Source: Hymenobacter psoromatis (GTDB lineage Bacteria; Bacteroidota; Bacteroidia; Cytophagales; Hymenobacteraceae). Taken from it: DNA of 64,000 nucleotides. The first letter of the stretch is position 1, and each line of letters starts with the position of its first letter. The notes below the pieces were generated by a model. It saw only the letters and a program-made list of their open reading frames with translations. It ran no database searches and was not told the origin of the DNA. This document shows positions 15,213 through 45,404 of this stretch, piece by piece. The position numbers and the translations under genes were made by a program. The stretch spans positions 930,001 through 994,000 of the forward strand of contig NZ_JAIFAG010000001.1 in the NCBI RefSeq assembly GCF_020012125.1. Reading direction: 5' to 3'.

Positions 15213-15310
15213 TGTTTTTATATGTCCAGGACTTGGCACCATTCCAGCAAGTAGCTGGGGGTTGCCGGCGTTTCGTCGAGCCTGTCTCTCCACGCCTCTT
15301 TATAAAAACA
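15213..15310 (-). promoter_or_regulatory. SAM-I (S-box) riboswitch aptamer
   Basis: Read on the minus strand the element runs TGTTTTTATA, AAGAGGCGTGGAGAGACAGG, CTCGACGAAACGCCGGCAAC, then after a P3/P4 region GGTGCCAAGTCCTG, then TATAAAAACA. This matches the SAM-I consensus: AGAGG-GGAGGGA, GAAAC-CC-GGCAACC and GGTGC-AA-TCC. The ends form a perfect 10-bp P1 helix (15301-15310 with 15213-15222). It heads the cys transcription unit, so high SAM should turn off sulfate assimilation. The distance to cysH is 277 bp. No second copy was seen ahead of the TonB receptor or any other gene here. Confidence 0.93.
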
Positions 15311-36170: not shown

Positions 36171-37190
36171 TCAAAAGCCCGCCAGTTCGTTAACAGTTAG
36201 CTCACGTAGGAGCTGCCGCAGGCTGGCTGGCTCTTGCAGCTGCCGCGCCAGATACTCCAGGTAGTCCGTTTCGGCCCGCAGGTCGCGCTTAATCTGGCGT
36301 AAGCGGGTGCGCTGCTGCTTTTCGGTGCCGCTCCAGGGCGCATCTTCCACGGGGCGCTGGGCGGCGGCCAGCTCCTGAGTCAGCTGCGCCTGTTGTTGCG
36401 CCAGCGCGGCAGTATAGCGCCGCAGCAATGCATCGGCTTCGGGGCTAGAGGAGGGGGTAGGGGCCTCACTGGTAGCTAGCAGCGCCAGCAAAGCGGCCAA
36501 ATCACCAGCCGCATAAGCCGCCGTAATGCGCTGCATCAGCGCCGTTTGAGCCTGCTGGGTAGCCGCATCGGCCTGAGCCGCGCGGTCGGGGTGGTGCAGG
36601 CGGGCCAATTGCCGGTAAGCGGTTTTGGTATTTTGCAGCAGCGACTGGCCCTCGGTTTCGGCGGCCTGCGCCTGGGTAGCGCGCTGCTGTTGCTTCCGCT
36701 GCTGCCTGCGGGCACGCGCTACCTCGGCCGCTCGCTCATGCGGCAACTCGTGCGCAGTGGGCGGTTCGGCCGGAGGCAGGGGGGTAGGGGCCACCTCGTC
36801 GTCGGGCATGGGCGGGGTAGGCGCGTAGCGTGCCAGTATTTCACCCTCATCTTCCCCAAAGCGTCTTTCCAGACTGTGGGCGTTATGCACTAGCAACTCT
36901 GTCACCTGCACCATCTCGGCGCGGCTGAGATGACCATCAGTCAAGGCCGTTTCGAGGGGCGCATACAGCGCCCGGCGTGCCGCTACGGCGGCAGCGGCCA
37001 CCGGACCCACCTGCCGCCAGTACGTTTGGCGCATAGCCGCCTGCGCCGCCCGCAATGTGCTCAGCTGCGCCCGCAACGCCTCAATAGCCGCCATCGCCGC
37101 TCGAAATGCCTGCTGGGCCGGCGAGCCCACGGCCGCCGTCGCCACCCGGTCGGGCAGCCATTGGCGCTGGAGAAAAGTGGAATCAGTCAC
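36171..37190 (-). CDS. J-domain-like protein
   Basis: 339 residues from GTG 37190 (a TTG lies 9 bp upstream). About residues 1-125 are helical and Ala-rich. A Pro/Glu linker follows (PTPPMPDDEVAPTPLPPAEP), then a strongly basic coiled segment (RARRQQRKQQQRATQAQAAE). The core around residue 195 reads LLQNTKTAYRQLARLHHPDR with the J-domain HPD motif, and continues into further helices. It should stimulate a DnaK-type chaperone, but the J-domain is internal and the flanks match no DnaJ class I recognise. It is divergent from the Ro60 locus, so a link to that system is possible but unproven. Confidence 0.72.
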   Translation of the reverse strand: MTDSTFLQRQWLPDRVATAAVGSPAQQAFRAAMAAIEALRAQLSTLRAAQAAMRQTYWRQVGPVAAAAVAARRALYAPLETALTDGHLSRAEMVQVTELLVHNAHSLERRFGEDEGEILARYAPTPPMPDDEVAPTPLPPAEPPTAHELPHERAAEVARARRQQRKQQQRATQAQAAETEGQSLLQNTKTAYRQLARLHHPDRAAQADAATQQAQTALMQRITAAYAAGDLAALLALLATSEAPTPSSSPEADALLRRYTAALAQQQAQLTQELAAAQRPVEDAPWSGTEKQQRTRLRQIKRDLRAETDYLEYLARQLQEPASLRQLLRELTVNELAGF

Positions 37191-37374
37191 GTCGCACAAA
37201 AATACGGCTTGGCCCGGCCGGCGCCAGTTTTATCCTTCGCGAAGCAGGGCGCAATAAGGAAGTGCTCTTCTTTCTTTGCATCTTAATTCACGTTGCTGCC
37301 GAATTAATTAATGCGACTTAATTATCTCAATTATCGTCTCCTGAAAAATAATTAAAAAATTAATTAACGAATAG

Positions 37375-37405
37375 TTGCACAAGTGGAATAATTACCCCAT
37401 CTTTG
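37375..37405 (+). promoter_or_regulatory. candidate Bacteroidota promoter
   Basis: TTG (37375-37377), 20 bp, then CATCTTTG (37398-37405), close to the TTTG-N19-21-TAnnTTTG pattern with one change in the TA. Predicted start about 37411, 17 nt ahead of the small ORF. Confidence 0.4.
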
Positions 37406-37427
37406 TCATACTAAAAACCCAAACACC

Positions 37428-37508
37428 ATGTACCACCACCTGATAAGCTTGCGCAATTCGGATAAAAAGCAGCCAGAAATGCTGCTCCGGCTCGGTACGT
37501 TTGCCTGA
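37428..37508 (+). CDS. candidate 26-residue peptide
   Basis: ATG to TGA encodes MYHHLISLRNSDKKQPEMLL plus RLGTFA. It lies 23 bp after a candidate promoter and just ahead of an 8-bp hairpin (ATTTTAGC/GCTAAAAT) and an intrinsic terminator, the layout of a leader peptide or of a small independent mRNA. No codon run typical of amino-acid attenuation is seen. Whether it is translated is unknown. Confidence 0.3.
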   Translation: MYHHLISLRNSDKKQPEMLLRLGTFA

Positions 37509-37535
37509 TTTTAGCTTTCGCTAAAATTATCGCCG

Positions 37536-37562
37536 CCCGAGCCCTTGCAGCTCGGGTTTTTT
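37536..37562 (+). terminator. intrinsic terminator, first micro-unit
   Basis: 7-bp stem CCCGAGC with GCTCGGG, 7-nt loop, T6 tail. Confidence 0.85.
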
Positions 37563-37601
37563 GTTGTTAGCCGGTTATCAGCCGCTTAGCCCATTCTCCC
37601 G

Positions 37602-37712
37602 ATGCTCATTTCCTGCCCCAGCTCCCTGCCTGCCTATTCCCAGTCGCAGTTCGGCCTAGCCGGGCGAGATGGGTATCCCCGTGGTTTTTCTTCGTGGCTT
37701 CGACACCGGTAA
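37602..37712 (+). CDS. candidate 36-residue peptide
   Basis: ATG to TAA encodes MLISCPSSLPAYSQSQFGLA and GRDGYPRGFSSWLRHR. It is bracketed by the two intrinsic terminators at 37536-37562 and 37742-37769. There is no family match I know. It may instead be part of a non-coding RNA; the segment GGTAAGTAATCGGTAAGACC just after it is repetitive. Confidence 0.25.
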   Translation: MLISCPSSLPAYSQSQFGLAGRDGYPRGFSSWLRHR

Positions 37713-37741
37713 GTAATCGGTAAGACCCCAGCGATAGTAAA

Positions 37742-37769
37742 AACCCGGCCTCGAAACCCGGGTTTTTTT
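37742..37769 (+). terminator. intrinsic terminator, second micro-unit
   Basis: Stem AACCCGG with CCGGGTT and T7. It ends 123 bp before the Ro60 start. Confidence 0.85.
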
Positions 37770-37892
37770 GTGTCTGTTTCACAACTAAGAATTAGTTTTT
37801 ATTTGCTTAGGAAAGGTATGCCCAATGCAGATTGCTAATTAATAAAATCGTAAGTAATTCAACCTATTCCCCACCCGCTACCTATTCCTGTC

Positions 37893-39422
37893 ATGCGTTT
37901 CAATCTTAATTTCCGCAGCAACACCGCGCTGGTTCGCAACCACGAAAACGCCCCCGCCTACCCCCTCACTCCGGCCCAGGAGCTGTACGCCGCCGTGGCC
38001 ACGGCCGCCCTAAGCGACCAGTTCTACGAGTCGGCCGACACCCGCCTGGTCCGCCTGCGCGAATTGGTGGCCCGTAGCGACCCGCAGTTTGTGGCCCGGC
38101 TGGCGGTGTATGCCCGCGAGCAGCTTTACCTGCGCTCGGTGCCGCTGGTGCTGGCCGTGGAGTTGGCCCGCCTGCATCGGGGCACCAACCTAGTGAGCCG
38201 CCTGGTGGCGCGGGTGGTGCAGCGCGCCGACGAAATCCCCGAACTACTGGCCTTTTATGCCCAGGCCAACGGCCGCACCGGCCCAAAAGTCCTGGGCCGG
38301 CTCTCCAAGCAGGTGCAACACGGCTTAGCGCTGGCTTTCAATAAGTTTGATGCCTACCAGCTGGCCAAGTACGACCGCGACGGGGCAGCCGTGCGCCTCC
38401 GCGATGCCTTGTTTTTAGTGCACCCCAAGCCCCGCGACGAGGCGCAGCAAGCGGTGTTCGACCAGCTCGTGGCCGGCACGCTACCGGTGCCCTACACCTG
38501 GGAAACCGAGTTGTCGGCCGCCGGGCAAGTCGCCTACCCCTCGCCCGCTGAGCGGCAGGCGGCCCTCACTAGCACCTGGGAAACGCTGGTGGCCAGCCGC
38601 CGCCTGGGCTACATGGCCCTGCTGCGCAACCTGCGCAACTTGCTGGAAGCCAACGTAAAAGCCGATACGCTGGCCCTGGCCTGCGCTACCCTCGCCGATG
38701 CCGGCCAGGTGGCCCGCGCCCGGCAGCTGCCCTTCCGCTTCCTGGCCGCTTACCGCGAGGTACTGGCCCTGGAAGTGGGCGCGGCGCCCCCGGTGCTAGC
38801 CGCGCTTGAGGCCGCTATCGGGGGTAGTGCCCGCAACCTGCGCGGTTTCGGGGCCGACACCCGCGTGGTGGTGGCCTGCGACGTGTCGGGCTCGATGCAG
38901 CAGCCTATTTCGCCGCGCAGCAAGGTGCTGCTCTACGACGTGGGCCTAGTGCTGGGTATGTTGCTGCAAAGCCGTTGCCAGCACGTAGTTACCGGCATCT
39001 TCGGCAACACCTGGAAGCGGGTGGCGCTGCCCCAGGGCCAGGTGCTGCGCAACGTGCAGGAACTGTACCGCCGCGAGGGCGAGGTCGGCTACGCTACCAA
39101 CGGCCACCTCGTGGTGCAGGACCTGCGCCAACGCCGCGAGGTAGTGGATAAAGTCATGATTTTCACCGACTGCCAGCTCTGGGATAGCGCCGGCAAGGGC
39201 AACACGCTGGCCCAGGAATGGGCCGCCTACCGCGCCAACGTGGCTCCCCAGGCCCGCCTCTACCTCTTCGACCTGGCTGGCCACGGCACCGCCCCGCTCG
39301 AGGTGCGCGCCGAGCACGGCGTGGCCCTCATCGCCGGCTGGTCCGATAAAATCTTCGACGTGCTCGCCGCCCTCGAAACGGGGGGTAGCGCGCTCACCGA
39401 AATCGAGAAAATTGACCTCTAA
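37893..39422 (+). CDS. rsr: Ro60/Rsr RNA-binding protein (TROVE + vWA domains)
   Basis: 509 residues. The first about 320 form the TROVE HEAT-repeat ring: MRFNLNFRSNTALVRNHENA, LTPAQELYAAVATAALSDQF, RLRELVARSDPQFVARLAVY and RSVPLVLAVELARLH. The last about 190 form a von Willebrand A-like domain with a complete MIDAS: VVACDVSGSMQQPI (D-x-S-x-S) and KVMIFTDCQLWDS. Bacterial Ro60 binds Y RNAs on its outer surface and misfolded RNA ends in its cavity, and teams with nucleases in rRNA maturation and stress RNA decay. Four Y RNA-like genes follow at once, then PcfJ and RtcB genes on the same strand, which supports the assignment strongly. Confidence 0.96.
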   Translation: MRFNLNFRSNTALVRNHENAPAYPLTPAQELYAAVATAALSDQFYESADTRLVRLRELVARSDPQFVARLAVYAREQLYLRSVPLVLAVELARLHRGTNLVSRLVARVVQRADEIPELLAFYAQANGRTGPKVLGRLSKQVQHGLALAFNKFDAYQLAKYDRDGAAVRLRDALFLVHPKPRDEAQQAVFDQLVAGTLPVPYTWETELSAAGQVAYPSPAERQAALTSTWETLVASRRLGYMALLRNLRNLLEANVKADTLALACATLADAGQVARARQLPFRFLAAYREVLALEVGAAPPVLAALEAAIGGSARNLRGFGADTRVVVACDVSGSMQQPISPRSKVLLYDVGLVLGMLLQSRCQHVVTGIFGNTWKRVALPQGQVLRNVQELYRREGEVGYATNGHLVVQDLRQRREVVDKVMIFTDCQLWDSAGKGNTLAQEWAAYRANVAPQARLYLFDLAGHGTAPLEVRAEHGVALIAGWSDKIFDVLAALETGGSALTEIEKIDL

Positions 39423-39689
39423 AAACCAAGCGGCCCGGCCGGGCAATAAAGCGAAAACCCCGGCCGGTCGCGTCAGTCAATAAGTAGGTTACGAATAAGT
39501 TAATTTTATTCGGATATACCAAAACTGGCAAACTAATTGTTTTACCCTTTACACGAATCTGCTCTATGATTCCCGACTTAGGCACACGGCTGACCCCTTA
39601 ATGGCAGCCGCTGGCCGGAACGGCTACCCGCCGGGGCCCTGTTTGCTCCGGCGGCCCGTTCCAAACCAGTCCCCCAACTCCCTCTCTTT

Positions 39690-39800
39690 CAGGTGCCGTA
39701 GGCTCGGCGTTACTTCGTGGTTGTCGGCGCAAGCCGTAGGGTTCGAATCCCACTGCGGCTATTTCGGTAGCGGCAGATACGCCGGCCGCTTGTTGCCCTG
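39690..39800 (+). ncRNA. Y RNA-like gene, unit 1 (tRNA-like module lacking a D-arm)
   Basis: 111 nt. The 5' strand CAGGUGCCGUAG and 3' strand GCUUGUUGCCCUG form the lower helix (CAGG/CCUG, then U-G and G-U beyond a bulged C) and an internal loop. The upper helix is GGCUCGGCG with CGCCGGCC (one bulge). Inside lie UUACUUCG, a CGGC-GCAA-GCCG tetraloop hairpin, a T-arm-like GUAGGGUUCGAAUCCCAC, and an acceptor-like hairpin CUGCGGCUA/UAGCGGCAG closed by a UUCG-type loop (one G-G mismatch). No AGCUCAG/GGUAGAGC D-arm follows, so this unit is shortened compared with units 3 and 4. Confidence 0.78.
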
Positions 39801-39831
39801 AATTTGGAGTTGCTAATTTTTTTCTGATTCG

Positions 39832-39967
39832 ACCGGGTGCCGTTGCGCAGCCATCCTTCGCTCCCCCTTGGGCTGGTCGCGGGTTCGACTCCCGAAGTAG
39901 CACGGCGCGCCATGCTGCGTTTGCGCAGGGGTAGGGCCAGCCCGTGGCTGCCCGTTATTGCCCCGGT
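39832..39967 (+). ncRNA. Y RNA-like gene, unit 2 (divergent tRNA-like module)
   Basis: 136 nt. Lower helix ACCGGGUG with UUGCCCCGGU, internal loop, upper helix GCGCAGCC with GGCUGCCC (one C-C mismatch), the same architecture as the other units. Conserved AUCCUUCG follows the upper helix, then GGUCGCGGGUUCGACUCCCG as T-arm. In place of the acceptor/D-arm there is a different fold, including CUGCG-UUUG-CGCAG, and a GGGGTAGGG copy (39927-39935). A T5 tail follows the closing helix, so it may end by intrinsic termination. Confidence 0.78.
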
Positions 39968-40025
39968 TTTTCAGAAATTATTTTTCCGTTTTTCGAGTAA
40001 TTAACCGTTGCTCGTTTCAATTTAG

Positions 40026-40164
40026 TTGGGTGCCGTAGCCCGGCCATACTTCGACTCTTAATCGCCAGGTCGCGGGTTCGAATCCCGCTGGCCGCTGCTT
40101 CGGTAGCGGCTGTAGCTCAGCCAGGTAGAGCAGGATATAGCGGCCGGACGCTTGTTGCCCCGAA
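40026..40164 (+). ncRNA. Y RNA-like gene, unit 3 (complete circularly permuted tRNA-like module)
   Basis: 139 nt. Lower helix UUGGGUG with UUGCCCCGAA, internal loop CCGUA facing GCUUG, upper helix GCCCGGCC with GGCCGGAC. Inside, in this order: AUACUUCG; a small hairpin CGA-CUCUUAA-UCG whose loop equals a tRNA-Lys(CUU) anticodon loop; T-arm GCGGGUUCGAAUCCCGC; a 10-bp acceptor-like hairpin UGGCCGCUGC(UUCG)GUAGCGGCUG; then D-arm UAGCUCAGCCAGGUAGAGCA. The order T-arm, acceptor, D-arm is the reverse of a tRNA, i.e. circularly permuted with its ends in the anticodon arm, as in the tRNA-like module of bacterial YrlA RNAs. Confidence 0.9.
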
Positions 40165-40180
40165 TAGATTTAGCTTATTA

Positions 40181-40315
40181 ATACCGGTGCCGTAGGTGCG
40201 CCTTACTTCGTTCAATACGGTGCGGTCGCGGGTTCGATTCCCGTTCGTGGGTTCGGCCCATGGTAGCTCAGTTGGTTAGAGCACATTTAGTGGCGCGCCG
40301 CCCGTTGCCCGGTAT
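40181..40315 (+). ncRNA. Y RNA-like gene, unit 4 (complete circularly permuted tRNA-like module)
   Basis: 135 nt. Lower helix AUACCGG with CCGGUAU (7 bp) plus U-G and G-U pairs beyond a bulged C. Upper helix GGUGCGCC with GGCGCGCC, 8 bp, unbroken. Inside: UUACUUCG, a linker, T-arm GCGGGUUCGAUUCCCGU, acceptor-like hairpin CGUGGG(UUCG)GCCCAUG, then a canonical D-arm GUAGCUCAGUUGGUUAGAGC. T-rich sequence follows (TTTTT at 40318-40322). It ends 131 bp before the PcfJ gene. Best-formed lower and upper helices of the four. Confidence 0.9.
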
Positions 40316-40446
40316 AGTTTTTCTCGTTTTTCACGCTCAAATCCGTCATTTTTTATGTCCAGAAATACTCTCATTTCCGACCCATTCGCATGGCATATTC
40401 ACCCACCTAACCTGGCGGCCGGAATTTCGGGCCGCGCCCCTGGCAC

Positions 40447-41754
40447 ATGGCCAACCGCAACAAACCTTTATCGCCTCAAGCGCGCACGGCGCTGCTGGCT
40501 GCCACTGCCTTAGCGCAGCATTTACCCTGGCAAAAATGGCCGCCGGCCCGCCAGCTTTCCTTTATTTTTTCAGCTAATGCCGCGCAGGTTATCGGGGTCC
40601 AGGCCGAGCCGCATTCGGCCCTGGCGCAGCTGCACCGCCACTGCGTAGCCACCCGACCCGCCGACGAGCAGTGGCGCATTCGGCACTTTCTCAGCCAGCT
40701 AGTCAAGTGCCGTACCGGCTTGCTGGACCGCCCCGAGTTGGCCCCGGCCCTGGCTCAGCTAGGCCTGCACTTTGCGTGCCGGGTGCGCGAGCTGGCCGGC
40801 TGGCAGCCGCGCTCCAAAAACGCTTTTTACCAGCTCGATAGCCTGGTGCGCCACCTTTTTGACCAGTTTGGCGATGTGCCGGGCTGGATGCTCAATGGGT
40901 GGGGTAGGGCGCCGGCACAGCACGCGGGCGTCGACCTCACGCTACTGTTCTTGCACCTGGGCCGGGGCCAGTCGCTGCGCAGCTTCGAGGGTTTGCCCGC
41001 GCCGCTCACCAAGCATCTGGAGCACGGCCTGCGCCAGGCGCCGGATGGCTGCACGTTCCAGGAAGCCTACCGCTATGCGCAGCTGGCGGCCCGCGACGCC
41101 ACCGAGTGGCTGGGCGTAGTGCTCGACTCGCGGCTGGGGCGCGAGCCCATTGGCCCCGACGATGCGCTGTGGCTGGCGGTGCTCGACCTGTTTCGGGCCG
41201 AGCCCGACGTCGATGCCTGGCAATTTGGCCCGGTCTGCGACTGGATTCACTTCCGCCGCCGTGTGGGCAATCTGGTCGAGCCCGCGCAGCCTGGCTTTTC
41301 GCTGCGGGGCCGCAGCTTGGCTTCGCTGCTGGCGCACACGGCGCGCTGGTTCCGCACGCTGGGGCCGGCCCGGCGCCACCCGCGCTTTCAGGAGCTGCTG
41401 GCGGCCGTGTGGCCGGGGCTGGCGGTGCCCGATTTTGCGGGCGGCGACGGCGACTGGGTACACATCCGGCAGCTGCGCAGCTACCCCGAGCTGCTCGACG
41501 AAGGCCGCCACATGCACCACTGCGTGGCGTCCTACGTGCACCAGTGCCAGCGCGGGCGGCGGGGCATCTACTCGCTCACCTTCAACGGCAGCCGCATGCT
41601 GACCCTCGAAATCACGCCCGATTACCAGCTGGTGCAGGCGCGGGGCAAGTACAACCGCCGCCCTACCCCCCTCGAACGCCAATGGCTCATTCACTGGCTC
41701 CAAAAAGAACGCCTCACGGCCGACGATTACGTGTGGGAGGGCATTCTCAACTGA
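40447..41754 (+). CDS. PcfJ-like protein
   Basis: 435 residues. The C-terminal third carries the PcfJ-domain signature: LLDEGRHMHHCVASYVHQCQ, RGRRGIYSLTFNGSRMLTLE and the basic stretch QARGKYNRRPTPLERQWLIH. PcfJ was named from conjugative plasmids, but the family is common on chromosomes and its chemistry is not known. The rest of the protein is helical and Trp/Arg-rich (WMLNGWGRAPAQHAGVDLTL; DWIHFRRRVGNLVEPA) and may bind nucleic acid. Its place between the Y RNA array and rtcB, with only 61 bp to the rtcB start, argues for a role in RNA repair rather than plasmid transfer. Confidence 0.83.
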   Translation: MANRNKPLSPQARTALLAATALAQHLPWQKWPPARQLSFIFSANAAQVIGVQAEPHSALAQLHRHCVATRPADEQWRIRHFLSQLVKCRTGLLDRPELAPALAQLGLHFACRVRELAGWQPRSKNAFYQLDSLVRHLFDQFGDVPGWMLNGWGRAPAQHAGVDLTLLFLHLGRGQSLRSFEGLPAPLTKHLEHGLRQAPDGCTFQEAYRYAQLAARDATEWLGVVLDSRLGREPIGPDDALWLAVLDLFRAEPDVDAWQFGPVCDWIHFRRRVGNLVEPAQPGFSLRGRSLASLLAHTARWFRTLGPARRHPRFQELLAAVWPGLAVPDFAGGDGDWVHIRQLRSYPELLDEGRHMHHCVASYVHQCQRGRRGIYSLTFNGSRMLTLEITPDYQLVQARGKYNRRPTPLERQWLIHWLQKERLTADDYVWEGILN

Positions 41755-45322: not shown

Positions 45323-45404
45323 GCGCACGTGGTGAAACTGGTAGACACGCCACCTTGAGGGGGTGGTGCCTTCGGGTGTGGGAGTTCGAATCTCCCCGCG
45401 CGCA
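45323..45404 (+). tRNA. tRNA-Leu (anticodon GAG)
   Basis: 82 nt, long variable arm typical of class II tRNA. Acceptor GCGCACG with CGCGCGC (one A-C mismatch), D-region UGGUGAAACUGGUAGACACG, anticodon stem CCACC/GGUGG around UUGAGGG (anticodon GAG), variable arm UGCCUUCGGGUG, T-arm GGGAGUUCGAAUCUCCC, discriminator A. CCA is not encoded. A terminator follows. Confidence 0.95.

Follow-up and report, generated by a model that had tools for sequence, protein, structure and literature searches.

Between a gene for a Ro60-type protein and a gene for an RNA ligase of the RtcB family, the window (the whole stretch of 64,000 nucleotides of Hymenobacter psoromatis DNA analysed here) carries four related units in tandem, and the question raised by this locus is whether these are Y RNA genes and what a set of them would do beside a single Ro60 protein. 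The answer that is considered probable, on comparative grounds, is that they are predicted Y RNA genes lying between Ro60/TROVE and RtcB, and that their RNAs would likely tether Ro60, bound to their stem, to enzymes which recognise tRNA. The locus is made up as follows.

37893-39422, plus strand: Ro60/TROVE protein gene, 509 aa, Pfam TROVE 89.2 bits; predicted partner of the RNAs
39686-40316, plus strand: array of four Y RNA-like units, with the Ro60/TROVE gene before it and the PcfJ-like and RtcB genes after it
39686-39804, plus strand: unit 1 (subfamily B), with stem, T-loop hairpin (3 pairs) and acceptor-like hairpin, no recognisable D-arm
39830-39969, plus strand: unit 2 (subfamily D), with stem and T-arm, no canonical or recognisable D-arm
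40023-40166, plus strand: unit 3 (subfamily A), with stem, anticodon-like hairpin, T-arm, acceptor hairpin and D-arm
40180-40316, plus strand: unit 4 (subfamily A), with stem, 5-base-loop hairpin (CGU/ACG), T-arm, acceptor hairpin and D-arm
40447-41754, plus strand: PcfJ-like protein gene, Pfam PcfJ 55.1 bits
41762-43216, plus strand: RtcB RNA ligase family gene, Pfam RtcB 277.6 bits

The protein encoded before the array combines the TROVE ring with a vWA domain (vWA_Ro60, 28.0 bits against a Pfam cut-off of 27.7), as is characteristic of the Ro60/TROVE family, and its vWA motif residues D330, S332 and S334 are invariant in 27 aligned sequences. In addition, when the PDB was searched with its AlphaFold model (mean pLDDT 84.5, 27 sequences), the top 13 matches were all Ro60, Rsr or TROVE structures, the matches including 9kop (E 1.2e-15), the Ro60 of Thermus phage phiLo (9l5y), 1yvp and Deinococcus Rsr (2nvo). 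Judged by domain matches and predicted fold, the product is a Ro60 homologue, and its gene ends 263 bases before unit 1, in keeping with the usual closeness of bacterial Y RNAs to rsr which the initial annotation cited. The predicted structure of the PcfJ-like protein (mean pLDDT 84.3) gave zero PDB matches at E <= 0.001; a weak, partial likeness to acetyltransferases was seen (top PDB match E 0.048). PADLOC defence-system annotation of nine window proteins returned zero matches, and little was gained from scanning 37150-40500 for promoters (3 promoter-like sites, 1.2 expected) and for terminators (5 terminator-like sites, 4.4 expected). Elsewhere in the window, a SAM riboswitch (75 bits) was found at 15215-15308 on the minus strand.

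The units share a general plan in which an outer helix, whose strands lie immediately before UGCCGU and immediately after UUGC, is followed by a conserved internal loop, an inner helix of about 8 pairs, the motif YUUCG and a variable module. The blocks which the initial annotation had described as common to the four units are indeed present in the sequence of all four, and its division into four units stands, with the correction that the outer helix starts 6 bases before the 5' block it had taken as the beginning. In units 3 and 4 the T-arm, acceptor hairpin and D-arm follow one another in circularly permuted tRNA order, just as had been claimed for these two; in units 1 and 2 no D-arm is recognisable. 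A T-arm is likewise common to the four, provided that the one of unit 1, with 3 pairs only, is accepted as such, since it fails the 4-pair recognition rule. The hairpin preceding the T-arm of unit 3 was absent from that description; its 7-base loop has CUU, of Lys type, in the anticodon position. The parts of unit 3 are given below.

40052-40064, plus strand: anticodon-like hairpin, stem CGA/UCG (3 bp), loop CUCUUAA
40072-40088, plus strand: T-arm, located in the sequence; T-arm helix 100% paired in the 24 aligned units described below
40089-40112, plus strand: acceptor-type hairpin with a UUCG-containing closing loop; 7 of 7 helix pairs change two-sidedly
40115-40131, plus strand: D-arm, located in the sequence; helix 5 of the 24-unit alignment

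The folding free energies offer weak evidence when taken alone (z of -2.26, -0.42, -1.67 and -1.83 for units 1 to 4), and comparative evidence was relied on instead. Within the window, the outer helix is paired at 6, 7, 7 and 7 of 8 positions in units 1 to 4 while the letters differ. An alignment of 24 units, two from the window and 22 from 16 relatives, was made with MAFFT from sequence only, and in it two-sided changes occur in 24 of 32 pairs, 95.8% of the paired cells are filled by pairs against 69.0% when shuffled, and the covariation score comes to 0.700, compared with 0.183 for the shuffles (0 of 500 as high) and a maximum of 0.162 when slid; the structure tested was derived from the same alignment, and most of the units had been selected by a script demanding both stem helices, which favours those helices. 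Owing to this bias the stem test was repeated on 216 units gathered by motif only, a unit being kept if a single TTGCC stood at the proper distance. Here the outer helix was paired at 5.25 of 6 positions, compared with 2.94 for shuffled partners (maximum 3.16, 500 shuffles), and the inner helix, with spacing taken from the A2 alignment, at 7.25 of 8, compared with 5.20 (maximum 5.42); a misplaced window which missed the 3' strand of the inner helix gave 3.66 against 3.64, without excess. Thus, the claim that both helices are kept while their bases change is borne out by the two tests, and the ends of the units pair as a two-helix stem with a conserved internal loop, as in a Y RNA, the outer helix being present in all four. 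A covariance model (R1), built from the 24 units and therefore partly from species of the Hymenobacter group, recognised units 1 and 2, which are outside its training set, with 55.8 bits (E 2.4e-12) and 49.4 bits (E 1.2e-10); the 135 and 123.1 bits of units 3 and 4 are scores of training members.

The distribution of such units was followed through the protein. A TROVE-alignment scan of a genome collection with one genome per species (84,980 species) gave 313 relatives, and in the best 80 of these, together with the window, R1 matched 436 times at E <= 0.01 (149 + 156 + 131); 430 matches were aligned, the 6 left out having ranked lowest in a single run. None of the 81 sources lacks a unit. The 56 loci of the Hymenobacter group (the window, L033-L084, L089, L096 and L106, with L072 from Solirubrum) have 3-11 units, and the other 25 have 1-5. 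Four units in one array had been called unusual, which proved wrong, the window standing at the low end of the range of its group; the suggestion of a multi-copy, diverging Y RNA family is, for its part, strongly supported by the arrays and subfamilies of the relatives. The largest array found, of 11 units, belongs to Hymenobacter sp. CA2-7 (L035). The median gap between successive units is 16 bases. RtcB lies on the same strand and downstream of TROVE in 66 of the 80 named loci, 14 having no downstream RtcB within the stretch examined, so that Ro60, Y RNA and rtcB form one block in the window plus these 66. The placement of the PcfJ-like gene varies, since it was found in 32 of the 80 named loci, on the upstream side of TROVE 24 times and on the downstream side 8 times.

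Since these loci had been selected for TROVE, a whole-genome test of co-occurrence was fairer. Among 150 genomes of the family, units (E <= 1e-12) occur in all 64 whose TROVE match is nearly full-length, compared with 1 of the 86 without such a match, although units are linked by descent and counts across relatives are not independent events. The sole unit-bearing genome of the 86 (G149, contig 23) has a fragmented TROVE match on the same contig, and two of the 64 (G056 and G065) have stop codons inside the TROVE match. A phylum-wide count of model matches at E <= 0.001 (205 of 296 genomes) was rejected as an estimate, because local model matches are often real tandem tRNA genes; pairs of this kind matching the middle of the model were seen in L169, L170, L171, L173 and L174.

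The interiors of the units fall by clustering into a few large subfamilies, among them cluster B with 59 units in 52 loci and cluster D with 25 units in 25 loci. The nearest relative is located in another locus for 421 of the 425 units of multi-unit loci, which means that most duplications predate the species under comparison. Moreover, nine subfamilies keep the same order in every pair that co-occurs, the exception being D before E, which holds in 9 of 10 loci; class A, of which a locus often has two units, was excluded from this count. The window reads B, D, A, A, and the array of Hymenobacter sp. UV11 (L033), whose TROVE protein is 94% identical, reads B D E A A F C. Some classes resemble particular tRNAs: the host's tRNA-Leu is the best match of the D-arm in 20 of 25 units of class E, the host's tRNA-Ser in 14 of 15 units of class I, and in both classes the segments before the T-arm look, by eye, like long variable arms. 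Classes C (35 units) and F (25 units) are short, without T-arm or D-arm, mostly 70-100 bases long, and stand last in many arrays (for example L033:10042-10111 and L033:10119-10200). Wherever both arms were recognised the T-arm precedes the D-arm (168 of 168 units), and the motif search left 124 of 430 units without T-arm, D-arm or 7-base hairpin. The near-fixed order of modules so unlike one another argues for a division of labour among them, without demonstrating one.

Several Y RNAs in one genome are not new: a 2014 study by Chen reportedly listed likely Y RNAs near Ro60 in more than 250 bacterial and phage species, with at least one tRNA-like Y RNA per species, so that part of the present description of the array may already be in print. 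The relationship to YrlA (Rfam RF02553; structure 6CU1, Salmonella) is seen in the two-helix stem formed by the paired ends, with its internal loop, in the permuted module of T-arm, acceptor and D-arm (units 3 and 4) and in the adjoining Ro60 gene. The comparison with the Rfam model, which the initial annotation had proposed, succeeded in part: units 3 and 4 align over the full length with 41.4 bits (E 1.5e-7) and 35.9 bits (E 6e-6), scores which remain below the gathering score of 69, while units 1 and 2 gave no match, and at the gathering score no match was found in the window or in the 11 related loci scanned. The window family differs from YrlA in remaining below that cut-off, in having up to 11 units per locus, and in its tRNA-Leu or tRNA-Ser type D-arms, its anticodon-like hairpin and its short units which consist of the stem only. 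It is, to judge from sequence, a strongly expanded variant of the bacterial Y RNAs, and the R1 model together with TROVE co-occurrence extends the detection of Y RNAs to a group in which YrlA is not found at the Rfam cut-off.

The bacterial Y RNA is described as circularly permuted relative to tRNA (PMC11472068), and YrlA as a modular RNA in which a basal stem holds Rsr and a tRNA-like domain, modified by DusA and TruB, binds PNPase (PMC8394870). PMC7790460 describes the Salmonella rsr-yrlBA-rtcBA operon as activated by tRNA fragments, and one operon with two Y RNAs is published in PMC9879122. With the rsr-yrl-rtcBA RNA repair operon the window shares the gene order Ro60, Y RNAs, RtcB; that operon, from a different phylum, has two Y RNAs, where the window has four and its group 3-11, and the window differs further by its PcfJ-like gene and by the lack of rtcA and rtcR domains among the 12 window proteins scanned. 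Permuted tRNA mimicry, Y RNAs beside Ro60, paired Y RNAs and phage TROVE proteins are thus already published. The literature search gave no large ordered arrays, no tRNA-Leu or tRNA-Ser modules and no anticodon-like hairpins, and no paper combining 'Hymenobacter' with 'Y RNA'; the field's main papers were outside its coverage, and its silence is not proof.

The tethering model takes as its template the Deinococcus complex of Rsr, Y RNA and PNPase, as outlined in the available sections of PMC8394870 and PMC7790460, which likewise joins a Ro60-type protein to a Y RNA; the array of the window family is larger than any named in those sections. By this model the units would be transcribed as small RNAs, each would bind Ro60 through the common stem, by analogy with YrlA, and each module would recruit a different tRNA-handling partner, in the manner in which YrlA tethers Rsr to PNPase. 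Candidate recruiting modules are the elbow of T-arm and D-arm, the arms of tRNA-Leu or tRNA-Ser type and the anticodon-like loops. Since units 1 and 2 have no recognisable D-arm and 124 of the 430 units no recognised part, the tether would need other modules there. That RtcB adjoins the array suggests, without proving it, that the Ro60-RNA complex serves RNA repair following tRNA damage.

Tandem tRNA genes would present the same order of parts, given that a stretch which starts halfway through one tRNA gene and stops halfway through its neighbour contains a T-arm, acceptor strands and a D-arm. Indeed, of six stretches of other genomes in which the model matched locally (positions about 31-117), five proved to be real tandem tRNA pairs. 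Yet the notion that the array consists of genuine tandem tRNA genes, or of what decay has left of them, is scarcely credible, given that the acceptor halves pair within one unit and change two-sidedly, that a conserved outer stem encloses the module, and that the units track the TROVE gene. Furthermore, neither ARAGORN nor Rfam at the gathering score found a tRNA in 39686-40316, the canonical cloverleaf in normal order being absent from the units (ARAGORN); the sole Rfam tRNA match of the window at the gathering score is at 45323. What the matches to the middle of the model do suggest, without proof, is that the permuted modules may have originated from tandem tRNA genes. Another conceivable role is that of cis-acting structured elements, untranslated or attenuator-like, of a TROVE-PcfJ-RtcB transcript, which would agree with T-runs at the ends of units 2 and 4 and with the location of the aligned units, all of which (426 of 426 in the 80 named loci) follow TROVE and, wherever RtcB is also downstream (66 loci), stand between the two genes (380 of 380). 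This role is very unlikely, for units also occur in loci without downstream RtcB or PcfJ, one stem is common to multiple divergent subfamilies, and YrlA aligns with units 3 and 4 over its whole length.

The anticodon-like hairpin deserves separate treatment. Greedy hairpin calling chose shifted stems, and an anchored test, with stem position and loop length as its sole criteria, was used in its place. From the 257 of 430 units in which UUCG and T-arm were recognised, segments of up to 25 bases were taken, giving 161 distinct ones. Hairpins with 3 pairs and a 7-base loop occur in 26 distinct segments at the first anchor, against 2.2 after shuffling (maximum 8), and in 14 at the second, against 2.5 (maximum 8), about 5 of these 40 being expected by chance. 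Loops of 6 and 8 bases show no excess over the shuffles at the first anchor. The second anchor has an excess of 5-base loops as well (17, compared with 2.5 after shuffling), and this is the type found in window unit 4. Altogether, 62 units, unit 3 of the window among them, have the 3-pair stem and 7-base loop after UUCG (58 of class A, 2 of G, 1 of E and 1 of M), with lysine-type loops in 32 and arginine-type loops in 12. One loop, in L072:8081-8223, has UUA in the anticodon position and would read a stop codon.

These loops invite a different explanation of the array, in which Ro60 would hold an anticodon panel of permuted tRNAs as bait and damage sensor, the members being specialised (type I, Leu, Ser) and keeping their places genus-wide; the loops would be sacrificial targets of anticodon nucleases, RtcB would rejoin them or the cell would sense the cuts, and the set of loops would change between genomes because the attackers change. 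The excess of 7-base loops, the preponderance of the Lys type and the adjoining RtcB agree with this, as do U33 in 23 and a purine at 37 in 24 of the 26 distinct loops. Within these loops variability is highest at the three anticodon positions 34-36; in the unit as a whole, in contrast, the same positions rank 26th to 32nd of 143 columns, and are hence not its fastest-changing part. G37 accompanies anticodons ending in AG or GG (4 of 7, compared with 1 of 19 for other anticodons; p 0.010), as it does among the tRNAs of the host (6 of 6, compared with 0 of 34), but U32 and U38 are found in 10 of the 12 loops that have G36, and in the host's tRNAs in 2 of 10. Only 5 of the 26 distinct loops are identical to a real tRNA loop of the single host genome compared, and 21 differ; column shuffling gives a mean of 1.65 and reaches 5 or more in 15 of 2000 trials, although the loops share ancestry. 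Besides, the stems have 3 pairs and not 5, and 368 of the 430 units lack the hairpin or are not testable. In PMC7790460, tRNA decay or competitive inhibition (a decoy) of an anticodon nuclease are raised as possible roles, and YrlA fragments were not detected in Salmonella under tRNA-cleaving conditions. On balance a panel of baits is considered unlikely, and tethering of Ro60 to tRNA-handling enzymes is the reading retained.

The interest of the family lies in the contrast with the bacterial Ro60 systems of the literature, which, in the sections consulted, have one or two Y RNAs and one kind of tRNA mimic. In this family a single protein gene has beside it as many as eleven units in an ordered series, which resemble at least three tRNA classes, in part with anticodon-like loops, so that the purpose of tRNA mimicry becomes directly testable, both in the enzyme drawn by each module and in the fate of the loops.

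Proteins of the same family as that of the window are encoded by phages, as in Thermus phage phiLo (9l5y) and in the jumbo phages included among the phage TROVE proteins of PMC7824862. Y-like units (E <= 1.6e-12) were also seen in 4 of 14 viral TROVE contigs, where, unlike in the window, they sit upstream of TROVE:

L119: 5366-5500
L113: 4531-4670 and 5088-5238
L120: 4578-4720
L116: 899-1048

The unit of L119 carries a 7-base loop, CUGAUAA, on an AGA/UCU stem, and this loop is that of the tRNA-Ile of the window's genome.
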